The notes below the pieces were generated by a model that worked only from the letters and a program-made list of their open reading frames with translations, was not told the DNA's origin and did not search any database. Made by a program: the position numbers and the translations under genes. DNA of 64,000 bases. Source: Chitinispirillum alkaliphilum (lineage in GTDB: Bacteria; Fibrobacterota; Chitinivibrionia; Chitinivibrionales; Chitinispirillaceae). Below, piece after piece: positions 41,041 through 50,505 of this stretch; the first letter of the stretch is position 1; every line of letters starts with the position of its first letter. The stretch is taken from assembly GCA_001045525.1 (NCBI GenBank), contig LDWW01000004.1, positions 62,001 to 126,000 on the forward strand, read 5' to 3'.

Positions 41041-41371
41041 GTGGCGAGATTGCTACCACACGTATATTCGGAAACTGAGGTAAAAAAAATCATTACTGCT
41101 CACAACAACATTAAACACCAATTGATGCTCTATCTTGCATACGGATGTGGAATGAGACTCAATGAAATAAGGTTAATAAAAAAGGAACATCTGGATTTTT
41201 TGCGCAAAATTATCAGGGTGGAAGGGTGCGTTATTAATGGGGCACAGCAGCTCAAAAACCACCGAAATTTATACCCATGTTAATTCTGAGAGCATAAAAA
41301 AAATAAAAAGTCCTTTAGCAAACCTTAACCTGTCTGAGGACGACCAGAATAACAAAGAACGAACCAAATGA
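41041..41371 (+). pseudogene. Tyrosine recombinase/integrase remnant with internal deletion and frameshift
   Basis: The first part (41041-41226) reads LPHVYSETEVKKII and YLAYGCGMRLNEIRLIKKEHLDF, the start of the catalytic domain including the first conserved Arg (GMRLNE). The frame then shifts, and from 41234 reads LMGHSSSKTTEIYTHV, with the last catalytic His and the nucleophile Tyr, followed by IKKIKSPLANLNL, an ending shared with integron-type and related recombinases. The roughly 100 residues between, including the HxLRH box, are missing. It lies 100 bp before the first gene cassette and points the same way as the cassettes, as in reverse integrons. It cannot be active. Confidence 0.85.
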
Positions 41372-41535: not shown

Positions 41536-42627
41536 ATGACATTGCAAGAATTAAATAAAAGTGCCATCGCAGAATTGCCCAAATCATATAAATGCTATTT
41601 TCCTGATTTCATCAAAGATATTTTTGACAACTATATACGCGAACTTCAGAATTTGTCCCCACAAAACAGGCTACATCAAGAAAAGTATGTATTGATATCA
41701 CAAAAGCTTACGTACGTTCAAAAACTTGCGAATGAAATCCATATGGCAATAAATGATTATTTTAATGGAAATGTGAAGTCTTGCTATAAACGATTAGAAG
41801 AAGTAATTGAAGAAGAAAGAGACTTGTTTGAAAGACTTATTACCAGCCCTAAAGATCAAATGACTATTCAGAATATTCATCCACGCGGTCTTTTCCGAAT
41901 TAGAAAGATTGTTAACCCCACGTCACAAATTGACCGTAAAGAATTGTTTCATGTTCCTTTTCAATACCGACATAATGTAGCAACTGCACGTTATAGTATA
42001 CCCGGCTTACCCTGCTTGTACTTATCTTCAAGTCTTCATATTGCGAAGAAAGAGCTAGGCTTGAGAAAGAGTTTAAACAAAGTGTATGTTTCACGATTTG
42101 AAGCATCACCAGATTTCAATATGCGTATTCTAGATTTTGGTTATCAACCAGAATTACTAGGTGATTGGAACTGTCAGTGTTTTGATCGCATTGTCTTTCC
42201 ACGGATAATATTCTGGCCATTGATTGCGGCATGTTCCATTTCCGTAAATTGTCAAAAAGCAACATTCAAACCAGAATATATTGTACCTCAATTCTTATTT
42301 CAAATAGCTTCTACTTTGTTTAATTTCGATGGAATCCGATATTTCTCTACCAAAGTTGGCTATGAAAGACCTGTGAACATTAATTATGCAATTAAAGTGA
42401 AACACATCCACAAAACTGAATATTGCACTTGGCTTAAAGACCAGTTTCTTTTAACGACGCCAATTTTATGGGATGAAATTAAATCAATTACAGAACAATC
42501 ACATTCGATGTTATTGCAGAATGAAAAATGCCAAATTCGCCAAGGAAAAAAAATGATAGATTATATCGAAACTGAATATAACCAGTTAGAACAAAAAATC
42601 GAAACTCTGTCATTGGCAAAAATATAA
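41536..42627 (+). CDS. RES-domain protein (cassette 1)
   Basis: The C-terminal two thirds of this 363-residue protein are RES-like: Arg in RGLFRIRK, the core RYSIPGLPCLYLSSSL and the Glu in AKKELGL. RES-domain toxins of RES-Xre systems degrade NAD+, and other RES proteins are uncharacterised. Here there is an N-terminal extension of about 110 helical residues and no Xre-type antitoxin beside it. The gene is the only one in the first integron cassette. AT-rich composition differs from core genes. AAGGAAATTTT lies before the ATG. Toxin or defence function is inference. Confidence 0.75.
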   Translation: MTLQELNKSAIAELPKSYKCYFPDFIKDIFDNYIRELQNLSPQNRLHQEKYVLISQKLTYVQKLANEIHMAINDYFNGNVKSCYKRLEEVIEEERDLFERLITSPKDQMTIQNIHPRGLFRIRKIVNPTSQIDRKELFHVPFQYRHNVATARYSIPGLPCLYLSSSLHIAKKELGLRKSLNKVYVSRFEASPDFNMRILDFGYQPELLGDWNCQCFDRIVFPRIIFWPLIAACSISVNCQKATFKPEYIVPQFLFQIASTLFNFDGIRYFSTKVGYERPVNINYAIKVKHIHKTEYCTWLKDQFLLTTPILWDEIKSITEQSHSMLLQNEKCQIRQGKKMIDYIETEYNQLEQKIETLSLAKI

Positions 42628-42675: not shown

Positions 42676-42833
42676 AGCCAACAGCCGCATGCCGGGTGAG
42701 TACACCCCAAATTGCGCTGATACTGGTGGTAGGTAAAATTATCGCCTGCTCAAGCTTCGAAGACTCGCTTAGACAGGCAATAATTTTACAATGCTTTTAG
42801 GCGCAACTTCGGCATGCGGCGGAACGTTGTATG
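42676..42833 (+). other. attC recombination site 1
   Basis: R'' AGCCAAC (42676-42682) and L'' GCCGCATGCCG (42684-42694) pair with L' CGGCATGCGGC (42810-42820). The site ends at R' GTTGTATG (42826-42833), which belongs to cassette 2. An inner stem GTAAAATTATCGCCTG/CAGGCAATAATTTTAC has one mismatch. The spacer is 1 nt on the left and 5 nt on the right, the asymmetry expected of attC. R'' is an exact complement of the box at 41471 that leads the same cassette. Confidence 0.85.
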
Positions 42834-42914
42834 AAATGCTTGGGAGGCTATCAGAAACCATGAGAAGATACATGTGCGAAGAAATAGAAGAAAAACTACC
42901 AATTGAGGCATATT

Positions 42915-45900
42915 ATGAAATCAAGTAAGTACGCATTAGTCCACATCGCCGATATTCATTATCGGAAAGAAACACCAGAAGGTGCATCCAGTATCATAAA
43001 GGCGTTTCTTAAAGACTTGGAAGAGCAAATTAAAACAAAAAGTGACTATCAATTCATGATTGCCATTACGGGTGATATTGTCCAAAAGGGTTTTGATTTA
43101 GACTCATATCAAGCTTTTATAAACGAGCTTGATAGCAAATTAAATGAAATGGGATTACCCAAAAATGCCCGGTTATTAGTGCCAGGAAACCATGATATAG
43201 ACCGTAATTTGGTCGCAGAAAAAACGGACGAATTTCTTGATATACATAAAAATGTTTCCAAAAATGAGACAATTTTTAATGATGCATTGAGCAATAGTAA
43301 TATTATTTCATCTAAGTTTGAAAATTACGACCTATTCTTAACTGAATTTACTGACCATAAAGAGCCCTATTCTGTTTTAGGTTGGGGGAAAAATATAAAC
43401 AATGAATTAGGAGTGTATTGTCTAAATACTGCTTTGTGTTCATTTGGCGGTCATAACGAAATAAATGACGATGGTGAACTAGCGATTTGTACACGCAATT
43501 TAGTCAGTTGGTGTAATTCTCAAAACAATAAAACAAATATTTTGCTAATGCACCACCCAATCGACAACCTTAATGCTTGGAGTAAAAGTGAATTGCAAAA
43601 AATAATCGATAATCACTTTCCGATATGTTTATGTGGTCATAGTCATCTTACAAAAGTATATAGTTCCAAACTACCTCCATCCTCATACATCTGCGTTGCA
43701 CCACCTCTGTTTTGTGGAAAAGACAGTCTCTTAGCTTATTCAATAATCGAAATAGAAGAGAATGAACCCTCAAGAATATTTTACAGAGAATACTCAAACG
43801 GTAAATTTTTCCCGAGTCATAATCTAACTAAGAACGTAAACGGTGTAATTGACCTTGATAATGTGAATCTAAAATATTTAAAAGAGTTTGAAGACGATCT
43901 CAATCAAGCATTAACTGCATATAAAGGGCAGCCAATAATATTTATTGAACCATATATCTCTGAATCCAGAGAATTTAACGATACGGAAAATCTAGTTAAT
44001 TCGGTTATTGATTCTCCTGAGAACATATTAATCGTTGCACCTCCACAGTTTGGACTATCTTGTTTGGGACGATACATGCGCTTGGAAGCATTAAAGGCAA
44101 ACAATTTTTGGCTATATATTGATATACTTCGGGAAAATAGAAAAAATATTCATAGAAACATTGAAAAAGAACTACTTAGATTTAAAAAAAATAAATCAGA
44201 TGTTAGATGTGTAATCATTGATAATTGGGATAAGGCAAATCAAGAGCATAAAATTATTTCAGAAAATTTGGACAAATATTTTGAAGGTATTCCCTTGATC
44301 TTCTTATCAAGCGAAAATTCGTATTCTGGTCCGCTTTCTGGTTTAGAAAAGCTTCAACGACAGTTTCGGCTACTTCACTTACAAGCGTTAAAAAGAAATT
44401 CCATTAGACAGTTTGTTTCTCATTACAATAGTCAAGACTCAGATGAAGAAGACGAACTTTTAACGCTCACAACCTCGCACCTCGAATCTCTAAACATCCA
44501 CAGAACCCCTTTGAATTGCCACACCTTGTTGAGAGTTCACCAGAGTGGCTATAGTGAAAAACTCTTGAATAAATCAAAACTAATGAAAGCCATTCTATTT
44601 GTGCTTTTCACTGACCCTGAAAGTTTTTACTATTCTAACTCCAAACCCGAAGTGGATGATAGCACTTTTGTATTAGGATGGTTTTGCAAGAAGTTGATTG
44701 AGAATGGCACGAGAAGTTTTAACAGTATCGAGTTCAAAAAAGAAATTAAAGATCTTTGTGAAAAAAGATATATTACTCTCAATATAGAAGCCATGATGAA
44801 TGTGTTAACAGACAACAACATTTTAATCAAGTATGGAGACACGCTTGAATTCAAGCACAGATACTGGGTTTTTTACTTTGCAGCAGAATATATGCACCAT
44901 GATGTTAATTTTAAAGAGTATATTTTGCAGAATAGAAGATATGCAAATTTTCCAGAAATATTGGATTTTTATTCGGGCTCTGACGGAAGAAGGGAAGATA
45001 TTCTCGAAATATTACACAGTGATCTTCAGTCGTTAATTTCTGAAGTTGATGAAAAAATTGGCATTAAAGGCGAGTTTAATCCGTTGTCTAAGTTCTTATG
45101 GTCACCACCTGATAAATTGATAGAAGAAACAAGGGTGAAAATCGCAGAAAAAATTGAATCCTCAAATTTGCCCGCAGAACTAAAAGACCAACAAGCCGAT
45201 AAGCATTATAATTCTAATGCTCCATATAACCAGAGTATCAATAATTTTCTGAATGAATATTCTGTTATTTGCCTCATGGGAAGTATTTCAGCATCTTCCA
45301 GAGCGTTAAGAAATAGTACATTTGTAAAACCTGAATTAAGGTTAAAGGTTGCTGAGACAATTTTCAAAGCGTGGGAAGAAATTTCGAAGGTCATATTCTG
45401 GCTTTCTCCTATTTTGGCAATAAATGGACGTGCTATGCACGATGGATTTTCTCTTGTTTTATCAGAAGATTTTTCAAACGACCCTCAAATCAGATTTAAG
45501 CAAGTTTTGACAGCTAACCCCAATAATGTGGTTCGTTTGTTGAAGGATGACTTGGCATCCAAGAAAATAGGGAAATTATTTTATGAATTATTAAAGGATG
45601 GGACTACTGAACTCCAGAAGCACTTTATTTCTATTTTTCTTTTAGAAGTTCGACCTTCTGGTTGGTTTGACAATTTACTTGAACACCTTAACCGTTTACA
45701 TCCAAGTTCTTATTATTTAGGGGATTTTCTGTCTTCTATAAAAAGTGAAATTCAATTGGGAAGTATGAGAAAAAGTGAAGAAGCGCAATTAAAGCAACTA
45801 GTAGGTGCAATACTTGCCAAACGCCGATATGCATCTAAGGCTTTGCAAAATAGAACGAAAGAGATACCTTCAAATATGGTTATTAGTGAAAAAAATAAAT

Positions 45901-45971
45901 TACCAGTCGATCAACTGTTAGCAAAGTATAACCCTAGTAGTCCAGAAAACCATTCGAGAACACTTCGTTAA
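42915..45971 (+). CDS. Metallophosphoesterase fused to STAND-like NTPase domain (cassette 2)
   Basis: Residues 1-270 of this 1018-residue protein are a calcineurin-like phosphoesterase: metal motifs IADIH, ITGDIV, PGNHDID, MHHP and CGHSH. From about residue 340 there is an NTPase-like region with a degenerate P loop (VAPPQFGLSCLGRY, no GKS/T), a Walker B-like CVIIDNWDK and a winged-helix segment LEFKHRYWVFYFAAEYM typical of STAND ATPases. The C-terminal 300 residues are helical. STAND proteins are frequent sensors in antiphage and conflict systems, so this is a defence candidate by inference. The ATG at 42915 has GAGG upstream. The gene fills its integron cassette. Confidence 0.75.
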   Translation: MKSSKYALVHIADIHYRKETPEGASSIIKAFLKDLEEQIKTKSDYQFMIAITGDIVQKGFDLDSYQAFINELDSKLNEMGLPKNARLLVPGNHDIDRNLVAEKTDEFLDIHKNVSKNETIFNDALSNSNIISSKFENYDLFLTEFTDHKEPYSVLGWGKNINNELGVYCLNTALCSFGGHNEINDDGELAICTRNLVSWCNSQNNKTNILLMHHPIDNLNAWSKSELQKIIDNHFPICLCGHSHLTKVYSSKLPPSSYICVAPPLFCGKDSLLAYSIIEIEENEPSRIFYREYSNGKFFPSHNLTKNVNGVIDLDNVNLKYLKEFEDDLNQALTAYKGQPIIFIEPYISESREFNDTENLVNSVIDSPENILIVAPPQFGLSCLGRYMRLEALKANNFWLYIDILRENRKNIHRNIEKELLRFKKNKSDVRCVIIDNWDKANQEHKIISENLDKYFEGIPLIFLSSENSYSGPLSGLEKLQRQFRLLHLQALKRNSIRQFVSHYNSQDSDEEDELLTLTTSHLESLNIHRTPLNCHTLLRVHQSGYSEKLLNKSKLMKAILFVLFTDPESFYYSNSKPEVDDSTFVLGWFCKKLIENGTRSFNSIEFKKEIKDLCEKRYITLNIEAMMNVLTDNNILIKYGDTLEFKHRYWVFYFAAEYMHHDVNFKEYILQNRRYANFPEILDFYSGSDGRREDILEILHSDLQSLISEVDEKIGIKGEFNPLSKFLWSPPDKLIEETRVKIAEKIESSNLPAELKDQQADKHYNSNAPYNQSINNFLNEYSVICLMGSISASSRALRNSTFVKPELRLKVAETIFKAWEEISKVIFWLSPILAINGRAMHDGFSLVLSEDFSNDPQIRFKQVLTANPNNVVRLLKDDLASKKIGKLFYELLKDGTTELQKHFISIFLLEVRPSGWFDNLLEHLNRLHPSSYYLGDFLSSIKSEIQLGSMRKSEEAQLKQLVGAILAKRRYASKALQNRTKEIPSNMVISEKNKLPVDQLLAKYNPSSPENHSRTLR

Positions 45972-46108
45972 ATAAAAAAACTAGGAATTATCACACATAT
46001 GATTGATAAATATTTTTAGCCTTAAGAGAAAACGTATTAAAAGGTATTCCAATGACAATATTTTTAAGAAAAGAAGCAGTAAACATGAAAACCGCCTCCC
46101 AAGCACAT

Positions 46109-46208
46109 CATACAACAACGGCTATGCGGTTCGGGCGGAGTACCGCCCTCTCCCAAATTGCCCTACGCTACGCTTCGGGCAACTTCGCATAGCCGCAAAC
46201 GTTGTTTG
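46109..46208 (+). other. attC recombination site 2
   Basis: R'' CATACAAC (46109-46116) and L'' CGGCTATGCG (46119-46128) pair with L' CGCATAGCCG (46186-46195). The 5 nt right spacer CAAAC precedes R' GTTGTTTG (46201-46208). R'' is an exact complement of GTTGTATG at 42826, which begins cassette 2. Total length is 100 bp. The site occupies most of the interval without a gene between 45972 and 46296. Confidence 0.88.
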
Positions 46209-47072: not shown

Positions 47073-47213
47073 CAAACAACAGCGCCATGCCAAAATTACT
47101 TTAAACTAAGGTAGGCGGAATTATCGCCAGATCAAGCTTCGAAGACTCGCTCGACAGGCAATAACTTCGCAATACTTTTAGCCGTAACTTCGGCATGCGG
47201 CGGAAGTTGTGCG
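47073..47213 (+). other. attC recombination site 3
   Basis: R'' CAAACAAC (47073-47080) is an exact complement of GTTGTTTG at 46201, which begins cassette 3. L'' GCGCCATGCC pairs imperfectly with L' GGCATGCGGC. R' GTTGTGCG is at 47206-47213. The right half (ACTTCGGCATGCGGCGGAA) and the inner part (TCAAGCTTCGAAGACTCGCT) are nearly identical to attC1, so the two sites are related and site 3 may be a hybrid. Confidence 0.82.
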
Positions 47214-47326: not shown

Positions 47327-48328
47327 ATGATCCGAGAAATTGCTAATAAAATTAATGAACTATCGAAAATTTATGAGATTGGCAAGCTGCAAAATATTCG
47401 CACAGAAATAAAGAAATTAAAGCGGAGGCCAGGTTCTGACATTTTTGATCATTCGACAATTGATAAAAATGATAAGTGGGCATTTCATTATGGTGGTCGA
47501 AAGGAATTACAATTTAATATTGGTCTTGAAGAAGAAGGATTCAGGTATGGTTTAGCACTATCACTTGAAGCAAGTCATACCTTGCCGGATATTTCTATTC
47601 TTTATCCAAAAGCAAAACGATTAAATCAATTCATCCGGCAATATCCAGATTTTTTTTCTGATTATAAAATGTGGCATTACCAAGAAAATGGAAGAAGCAA
47701 TATTTATCCTGTAAAACCAATTTCTGAAGATCTGCTTAAATTGCATACGTTTATATTCATAGGTAAGTTATTACCAGAAAACAAAATTGATTATGATGAA
47801 GTTCTTAAGACATATGACGAGCTTTTAAAGCCATATGTATTCGTTGAAAAAAATGTAAATAGTGAAATTATTGAATACGGTATGAATGAGGACAATGCAT
47901 TTAATTTTGAACTTAAAACTCGTAAGCTGCCTAGGAAACGTGATTACACTATTGAGGAAAAATCTATAAACTTGGCGGTAAGGCATACATTGGTGCAGGA
48001 AAAACTGATTCAAATCTTATGTGAGAAATACGGAGCAGACAATGTTTCTCCGGAGCATCCTATCAGTGGAAAAAAAATAGATGTTGTATTGAAAAACGGA
48101 AAAACAATCGTCTTTTATGAAGTTAAAATATGCGGCTCTGCAAAAGCTTGTATTCGCGAAGCACTCGGTCAACTAATGGAATATTCCTATTGGCCAAATA
48201 GAAAAAATGCTGATTTGTTGGTTGTGGTAGGTGAAGAAGAAATAGATTCAAAAACTGCAAAATATTTGAAGTATTTGAATAGCGTTTTTAGTTTACCTAT
48301 TCAATATGAAAGTATATCAATCAATTAA
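47327..48328 (+). CDS. PD-(D/E)XK-type nuclease domain protein (cassette 4)
   Basis: The C-terminal 130 residues of this 333-residue protein look like a restriction-endonuclease fold: the core Asp in GKKIDVVLKNGK followed by EVK in VFYEVKICGS and a helix with QLMEYSYWP. The N-terminal 200 residues have no recognised domain. Such proteins include Mrr-like and other DNA-degrading enzymes of defence systems, but the exact family is not clear. It is the sole gene of integron cassette 4, with no methylase alongside. Confidence 0.7.
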   Translation: MIREIANKINELSKIYEIGKLQNIRTEIKKLKRRPGSDIFDHSTIDKNDKWAFHYGGRKELQFNIGLEEEGFRYGLALSLEASHTLPDISILYPKAKRLNQFIRQYPDFFSDYKMWHYQENGRSNIYPVKPISEDLLKLHTFIFIGKLLPENKIDYDEVLKTYDELLKPYVFVEKNVNSEIIEYGMNEDNAFNFELKTRKLPRKRDYTIEEKSINLAVRHTLVQEKLIQILCEKYGADNVSPEHPISGKKIDVVLKNGKTIVFYEVKICGSAKACIREALGQLMEYSYWPNRKNADLLVVVGEEEIDSKTAKYLKYLNSVFSLPIQYESISIN

Positions 48329-48753: not shown

Positions 48754-49368
48754 CTATGTTACCATTGCATCCCTCCTGCCAGGAGGGATGATCAATACCA
48801 GTTTCAACAGACCCCTTTTGCACCTTTGACATATCAGCGGGTTCTTCCCTGTTCTTTCCAGAATCTGCTCCCACCAGCTGCCAATTGTTTCCTTTGCAGC
48901 CACCGCATACTCACCCATAAGTTTTCTGCACAGGTTAATGTTTTCCCTGCGATCACGGTTTGCAAACAGACCGAAGTGCCGTATTCTCATAAAGCCACCG
49001 GGAAGAACGTGGAGCAGAAACCGCCGTATAAACTCCACCGCAGACAGGGTCATCACCTTGCGTTTACAATCGTTGCGGTAATCGGTATAGGAGAAGGTGA
49101 CTTGACCGTCTTTAAAGGAGAGAATGCGATTTTCGCTTATGGCTATACGGTGAGTGTAGTTGCCAAGGTAGTTAAGAACAGCCTTGGGAGATGCAAATGA
49201 GGGTTTGATATAGACAACCCACTCCTTTCTGTAGAGGAGACTGAAGAGGTCGTGAAGTTTACCTTTATCAGTAAACACTTCCAGAACACCGTGGTACTTT
49301 ATCTCCCCTGCGGCAAGCGCCTGTTTAAAGTACTCCATAAATTTTCCACGGTACACCTGCTTTATCAC
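48754..49368 (-). pseudogene. IS91-family transposase, N-terminally truncated
   Basis: The 204 residues match the C-terminal half of IS91/IS801-type rolling-circle transposases: YLGNYTHRIAISENRIL, then FIRRFLLHVLPGGFMRIRHFG and LFANR, and a C-terminal CxxC knuckle. Sequence upstream in the same frame continues the family (LRLKDNLWKHCRNDFFAH) to a TGA at about 49434, so the conserved N-terminal zinc and catalytic region is lost. The coding remnant starts beside the tandem-repeat array. It is not expected to be active. Confidence 0.8.
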
Positions 49369-49541
49369 ATCAATATGAGCGAAGAAATCGTTTCTGCAGT
49401 GTTTCCACAGGTTGTCTTTTAAACGAAGTCCACCTGCTCATCATCTCAATGAGGAAGTACTTGCTGGTGCCCTTACATGGCGGGACTATTTCAAAAAACA
49501 CCAAAATGCCATTTCGCTCTGTAGGAGCGACACACCTGTAG

Positions 49542-49570
49542 CCTGGGGTGAAGCCCGGCGTAACCCCAGG
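49542..49570. repeat. Short inverted repeat
   Basis: CCTGGGGT and ACCCCAGG flank a GC-rich loop (GAAGCCCGGCGTA). It resembles short extragenic palindromes. It lies 30 bp left of the tandem-repeat array. Confidence 0.55.
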
Positions 49571-49600
49571 TAAGGAAATAAAAAAATCATCCGGTCCAAA

Positions 49601-50404
49601 TAATTGTAAGGCCAGTGCCAAAATATGCTGTGCAAGTGCCGAATTTTGCACATCCAGCGCCCTGACCGACCAGTGCAAGCGCATATAATTGTAAGGCCAG
49701 TGCCAAAATATGCTGTGCAAGTGCCGAATTTTATACATCCAGCGCCCTGACAGACCGATGCAAGCGCATATAATTGTAAGGCCAGTGCCAAAATATGCTG
49801 TGCCAGCGCAGAATTTTGCACATCCAGCGCCCTGACCGACCAGTGCAAGCGCAAATAATTGTAAGGCCAGCGCCAAAATATGCTGTGCAAGCGCCGAATC
49901 TTGTACATCCAGCGCCCTGACAGACCGATGACAAGCGCATATAATTGTAAGGCCAGTGCCAAAATATGCTGTGCAAGCGCCGAATTTTGCACATCCAGCG
50001 CCCTGACCGACCAGTGCAAGCGCATATAATTGTAAGGCCAGCGCCAAAATATGCTGTGCAAGCGCCGAATTTTGTACATCCAGCGCCCTGACAGACCAGT
50101 GCAAGCGCATATAATTGTAAGGCCAGTGCCAAAATATGCTGTGCAAGTGCCAAATCTTGTACATCCAGCGCCCTGACGACCAGTGCAAGCGCATATAATT
50201 GTAAGGCCAGCGCCAAAATATGCTGTGCAAGCGCCGAATCTTGTACATCCAGCGCCCTGACCGACCAGTGCAAGCGCATATAATTGTAAGGCCAGTGCCA
50301 AAATATGCTGTGCAAGTGCCAAATCTTGCACATCCAGCGCCCTGACGACCAGTGCAAGCGCATATAATTGTAAGGCCAGCGCCAAAATATGCTGTGCAAG
50401 CGCC
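49601..50404. repeat. Tandem repeat array, about 9.5 units of 85 bp
   Basis: Units begin TAATTGTAAGGCCAG at 49601, 49686, 49771, 49856, 49942, 50027, 50112, 50196, 50281 and 50365; spacing is 84-86 bp. Each contains TATGCTGTGCAAG, a CATCCAGCGCCCTGAC segment and CAGTGCAAGCGCA. Units differ by a few substitutions and single-base indels. Because 85 is not a multiple of three and the minus strand lacks stops, long repetitive frames run through all three minus phases; they are not considered genes. Confidence 0.92.
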
Positions 50405-50505
50405 CCTTTGGGAGCTACACAATAAGAACTAATCATTATTCAAAAGCTGTTTTTCAGATTTTTGCTGGTTTGCAGATATGATTGCTTTATTTCGTTGTCG
50501 TCTAA

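Follow-up and report, generated by a model that had tools for sequence, protein, structure and literature searches.

DS-8 is a proven anti-phage protein encoded by one gene, in which a metallophosphatase is combined with a NACHT domain, and its defence was abolished by changing either of two metallophosphoesterase (MPE) residues or one residue of the NACHT ATPase (PMC13092281). In Avs5, replacement of the Gly or the Lys of the Walker A motif likewise abolished immunity (PMC12931631), and the portal-sensing anti-phage system Swarozyc carries DUF4062 as a TIR-like NADase effector (2026 preprint, PMC13174449). Nucleotide binding by the P loop is the presumed switch of NLR and STAND immune proteins, and its mutation inactivates the bacterial ones tested so far. 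Here we describe a gene from Chitinispirillum alkaliphilum whose product joins an MPE domain to a STAND core lacking the Walker A lysine. It lies in a stretch of 64,000 nucleotides (assembly GCA_001045525.1, contig LDWW01000004.1, positions 62,001 to 126,000; hereafter the window, to which all coordinates refer unless another contig or locus is named). In all likelihood it serves as a sensor of phages and sets its phosphoesterase free with no need of canonical ATP hydrolysis.

Domain architecture and the lysine-less P loop

The gene is a complete open reading frame on the forward strand (42915-45971) encoding 1018 amino acids (P0001), with an ATG start and the sequence TTGAGG just 5' of it; an alternative TTG start at 42903 would add four residues. 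The N-terminal part (residues ~1-300; 42915-43814) is a calcineurin-like MPE domain and the likely effector. Pfam Metallophos (PF00149) covers residues 8-244 (E 4.7e-13), and all of the MPE motifs are intact (DIH 13-15, GD 53-54, GNHD 91-94, HH 213-214 and GHSH 241-244). It is followed by a STAND/NACHT NTPase core (residues ~360-500; 43992-44414) and a winged-helix region (residues ~553-660; 44571-44894), the latter supported by the predicted structure and by a match to nSTAND_NTPase4 at residues 601-656 (30.1 bits, cut-off 27). Next comes an all-helical domain (residues ~661-978; 44895-45848), which we regard as the candidate sensor.

The AlphaFold2 model of the whole protein, built from a 39-sequence alignment, reached a pLDDT of 81.5 and a pTM of 0.64, the latter making the placement of the domains relative to each other less certain. 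In a Foldseek search, the best solved matches of the NTPase core were the NACHT domains of NLRP3, NLRC4 and NOD2 (NLRP3: E 4.5e-9, probability 1.00), and the phage-sensing Avs3 ranked 20th among the matches of the model. The C-terminal domain, when modelled separately, gave a pLDDT of 82.3 and a pTM of 0.84; its best Foldseek hit among solved structures was not significant (E 0.035), and a sequence search of the PDB with the whole protein and the A3 profile returned no match. The protein therefore has the NACHT/AP-ATPase-type fold followed by a winged helix that characterises the STAND superfamily, a build resembling that of animal NLR immune sensors, and lacks the Walker A consensus GxxxxGK[ST] of that superfamily. 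The first-pass annotation, which was made from the letters of the DNA, had proposed a complete calcineurin-like phosphoesterase joined to an NTPase/winged-helix region with a degenerate P loop in a protein of 1018 residues. Pfam, the motifs and the predicted structure agree with this proposal, and the NTPase fold anticipated for the C-terminal part proved to be of the NACHT/STAND type.

In place of the Walker A consensus, the protein reads APPQFGLS (residues 375-382; 44037-44060). This octapeptide aligns column for column with the GxxxxGK[ST] of relatives, so Leu381 has replaced the lysine. The Walker B-like strand is CVIID (residues 432-436; 44208-44222). To place this P loop among its relatives, we used a profile of the C-terminal module, built from the window protein, a Chryseobacterium plasmid protein and a Pseudomonas (P. 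mandelii) plasmid fragment and scanned against one genome per species, together with the search patterns FPEIIEFY and LKDxxADK. As both patterns are distant from the P loop, the retrieval was not selected for its state. Among the matches listed, the clade comprises at least 41 loci and spans at least five phyla (Bacteroidota, Thermodesulfobacteriota, Pseudomonadota, Chloroflexota and Verrucomicrobiota), the nearest relatives of the window protein being L016, L049 and the Chryseobacterium protein P0002.

All 39 sequences of the P-loop alignment, which holds 37 of the 41 loci plus the window and Chryseobacterium proteins, carry a loop of the type [AS]xxx[FY]G[LA][TS], with Leu at the lysine position in 38 and Ala in one. 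Two genes with broken frames were kept outside the alignment and read PPQFGLSC (L054) and QQYGSTS (L047). The Walker A lysine is consequently absent from 41 of 41 readable members, 39 of which have Leu there. Gly380, Thr/Ser382 and Asp436 are invariant in the alignment (39/39), and Ala375, Pro376 and Phe/Tyr379 are nearly so. Lys374, present in 25 of the 39, was considered as a stand-in for the missing lysine and ruled out, the residue being Val in the window protein and Ser, Ile or Asn elsewhere. Since lysine-less loops occur throughout the clade and the surrounding residues are conserved, the alignments indicate that this P loop is a fixed and constrained state of the whole effector-swapping clade and not decay. 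Such a natural clade deserves attention because Walker A changes abolish immunity in Avs5.

The strongest alternative to activation without ATP hydrolysis is a nucleotide-driven STAND switch like that of DS-8, in which ATP or ADP would be bound through Gly380, Thr/Ser382, Asp436 and perhaps Arg498, with the lysine replaced. The invariance of Thr/Ser382 and Asp436 is in keeping with this idea, as is Arg498, which is invariant in the clade and not in two outgroup proteins with GKT. In addition, an E-to-Q change in Walker B of Avs5 still protects (PMC12931631), so hydrolysis may be dispensable there. Nevertheless, the lysine whose replacement inactivated Avs5 (PMC12931631) is missing from every readable member, mostly in favour of Leu, and no other lysine of the core is invariant. 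We therefore consider a nucleotide-driven switch a possible but rather unlikely explanation.

Exchange of N-terminal domains and the anti-phage reading

Four kinds of N-terminal domain occur on the one C-terminal module, namely the MPE type of the window protein (9 proteins), a second MPE type (2), DUF4062 or DUF4062-like domains (28) and trypsin-like proteases (2). The C-terminal domain is kept across these effector types, with a mean column identity of 52% (alignment A7). On the module tree, which omits two MPE members on long branches, the distribution of N-termini needs five label changes, or four if both MPE types are merged, and a tree forcing all MPE members together was rejected (p-AU 0.0026). 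A first, larger module tree also gave several effector switches. The clade thus displays the swappable N-terminal effector that is characteristic of STAND proteins, and NLR-like immunity is typified by killing domains that are exchanged while the sensor stays the same.

The distribution of the clade is sporadic. Of 168 genomes in the phylum of the host, only that of C. alkaliphilum carries the C-terminal module, and the same holds for a match to PDC-S60, a candidate defence family of PADLOC. Two further genomes from the order or family of the host also gave matches; these concerned the MPE domain only, in unrelated proteins, and were discarded. A single-sequence search of genome contigs found nothing, and no viral member was found in phage records or in two scans of viral contigs. 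Clade members occur on plasmids, in the integron-type array described below and at scattered chromosomal sites. The Chryseobacterium member sits between type I restriction subunits and adjoins genes for a CBASS cyclase and a 4TM effector, and the P. mandelii plasmid member is near a CBASS cyclase. Taken over all loci, the closest two genes to the left and to the right have matches to restriction enzymes, MADS, pAgo, SoFic, AriA and others. The co-occurrence with defence genes and the non-housekeeping distribution that the first-pass annotation had asked about are hence both borne out among the relatives, and its proposal of a candidate defence gene gains support from these neighbourhoods and from the homology to DS-8.

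From this homology, the effector swaps and the genomic context, we infer an anti-phage role; the GC content of the gene (34.0%, against 42.4% across the window) was also counted in its favour. The protein probably makes up by itself an NLR-like anti-phage system borne by an integron cassette, in which a lysine-less hinge frees the MPE domain upon a phage cue. The C-terminal helical domain and the winged-helix region would keep the protein inactive until the helical part recognises a cue made by the phage. The lysine-less STAND core would then act as a structural or oligomerising hinge instead of an ATP-hydrolysing switch, and recognition would release or assemble the N-terminal two-metal MPE domain. 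Once freed, this domain might cleave a phosphodiester in a nucleotide or nucleic acid and so put an end to phage production, presumably by incapacitating the cell. Within this scheme, the sensory role of the C-terminal domain, an activation independent of ATP and the substrate of the MPE domain are what we infer. As to the substrate, the MPE domain shows weak profile kinship to structures of the GpdQ-type phosphodiesterase and Lmo2642, and the 'Endonuclease' effector model of CBASS in PADLOC recognises related MPE domains (P0004: E 2.8e-26), so that the candidates left are a nucleic acid and a small phosphodiester. A broader and more tentative proposition is that the whole lysine-less clade works without ATP hydrolysis, perhaps even without nucleotide, and fires its swappable effectors through a new type of helical sensor.

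Several points weigh against this reading. The STAND defence proteins in which the Walker A residues were tested, Avs5 and DS-8, cannot do without them, and a lysine-less member could for that reason be less active, function only with a partner, or bind nucleotide in a different manner. Many of the DUF4062 members of the clade are closely related to each other, the PADLOC PDC families are computational candidates, and the neighbours within the cassette's own array, with RES-like (weak) and PD-(D/E)XK-like matches, are suggestive at best. Furthermore, the tally of PADLOC families among neighbours (183 in the 142 nearest proteins versus 40 in 98 farther ones) overstates the contrast, because families and not proteins were counted, and is only supportive of a defence role.

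It is also conceivable, albeit improbable, that the protein is a regulated toxin or a stabiliser of mobile elements, whose MPE domain fires upon a threat to its cassette or plasmid and which has no phage-specific role. The spread of members over plasmids, an integron-type array and various chromosomal locations would suit such a function, but the cassette holds one gene with no antitoxin partner, and the homology to DS-8, the defence-gene neighbourhoods and the conservation of the sensor module independently of the effector speak for defence. A housekeeping role, as a MalT-like STAND regulator or a metabolic phosphodiesterase, is very improbable: regulators do exist among STAND proteins and GpdQ-type phosphodiesterases among the MPE relatives, but the module is confined to one of the 168 genomes of the phylum, in other members the effector is a protease or a TIR-like NADase domain, and no DNA-binding output domain was recognised. 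Finally, a dying cassette gene that has lost its function along with the lysine, an idea to which the truncated recombinase remnant nearby lends some colour, is largely refuted by the full-length frame, the intact MPE motifs and the recurrence of the same P-loop change in the 41 members with strong conservation around it.

A conserved natural clade that swaps its effectors and lacks the lysine would offer a way to find out whether such proteins require an ATP switch, and would contribute a compact sensor module with several effector pairings to the repertoire of phage defence.

The cassette and its array

The gene is the sole one between two attC-like elements, upstream at 42676-42832 (R' box GTTGTAT at 42826; z -7.2 for folding of the bottom strand) and downstream at 46103-46207 (R' box GTTGTTT at 46201; z -5.5), the latter being the cassette's own. 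From the GTT boxes, the cassette is placed between recombination points at 42827 and 46201 (3375 bp). In this array, a third element of the attC-like kind follows at 47074-47212 (z -2.7). These elements are imperfect palindromes that have CAAC/GTTG end boxes in common and fold better on the bottom strand than shuffled sequences, as is expected for the attC sites that flank integron cassettes, and the suggestion that the gene is cassette-borne is therefore well founded. About 3.4 kb is long for an integron cassette, and the gene would add a large NLR-like protein to the defence repertoire of such cassettes. Anti-phage genes in integron cassettes have reportedly been described by Kieffer et al. 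(10.1126/science.ads0915) and Darracq et al. (10.1126/science.ads0768), as cited in PMC13092281.

The genome has nine occurrences of this element type, many of them at the ends of contigs, and one copy is adjoined by a group II intron with a reverse transcriptase (L074, 637-2855, minus strand). Group IIC introns are inserted at attC sites. An intact integron integrase was not found in the genome, of which the draft assembly breaks at array ends. The recombinase frame beside the array at 41041 is a truncated tyrosine-recombinase remnant. Elsewhere in the genome, those tyrosine recombinases that are complete resemble XerC/XerD and an IS91-type companion. Contig C58 was considered as the carrier of an integrase and dropped, since its recombinase accompanies an IS91-type transposase. 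A near-identical remnant of the truncated recombinase adjoins attC-like elements three times (41041-41345 in the window, L075 926-1255, and near position 1139 of contig C12).

Of the neighbouring cassette genes, that at 41536-42627 (forward strand) has a weak RES-domain match (E 0.0059) and a strong one to phrog_7835, a phage family without an assigned function (E 2.8e-53). The other, at 47327-48328 (forward strand), has a PD-(D/E)XK-like C-terminus (IDVVLKNGKTIVFYEVK) with weak matches to SfsA, YraN and phage nucleases. A fragment of an IS91-type transposase is located at 48754-49368 (minus strand), a full copy with its companion tyrosine recombinase being found at L073 2985-5152, and an 85-bp tandem repeat of ~10 copies (49506-50431) lies directly past the array.

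Comparison with described defence systems

The Avs (AVAST) proteins share with the window protein the order of effector, STAND NTPase and C-terminal sensor, and the likeness to Avs3 is one of fold. Nevertheless, Avs5 depends on a Walker A motif that is absent here, the sensor domain and the effector are also different, and no Avs model was among the PADLOC matches of the window protein. Swarozyc follows the same logic of an N-terminal effector and a C-terminal phage sensor, and DUF4062 or a DUF4062-like domain heads 28 of 41 lysine-less proteins. The window protein, however, carries an MPE domain in that position, and the sensor of Swarozyc is a small portal-binding helix-turn-helix/winged domain, as opposed to the STAND core and helical domain of the clade.

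In the PADLOC family PDC-S60, the model PDLC05051 matches residues 9-804 of the window protein (E 5e-48). It also includes a DUF4062-headed model, PDLC05050, which echoes the effector swap of the clade. Members with an intact P loop score 402 and 364 bits in this family, in comparison with 162 for the window protein. A search of the open-access literature found no paper naming PDC-S60 or the lysine-less clade.

DS-8 and the window protein are both single proteins of about 1000 amino acids with an N-terminal MPE domain and a NACHT/STAND core, alignable over residues 10-753, and the MPE site that a DS-8 should have is intact in the window protein. On the DS-8 model (NCBIfam NF053861, cut-off 790 bits), the window protein scored 145 bits and a DS-8 member, L087, 1073. 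The P loop of L087 reads GDEKAGKTT, in keeping with an active NTPase, its Lys aligning with Leu381 of APPQFGLS, and the Walker B strands are LLVDD in L087 and VIIDN in the window protein. The C-terminal domain also differs and is specific to the clade. DS-8 itself seems to swap effectors. Two proteins (L088 and L089) combine a DS-8-type core and an intact GKT with an N-terminus that is TIR-like by eye. In another protein, L090, a DS-8-type MPE domain is fused to a C-terminal domain that resembles the SIR2 type by eye. As its score is far under the cut-off and L087 retains the GKT, the window protein shares the build of DS-8 yet is not a member of it, and DS-8 is its nearest tested relative.
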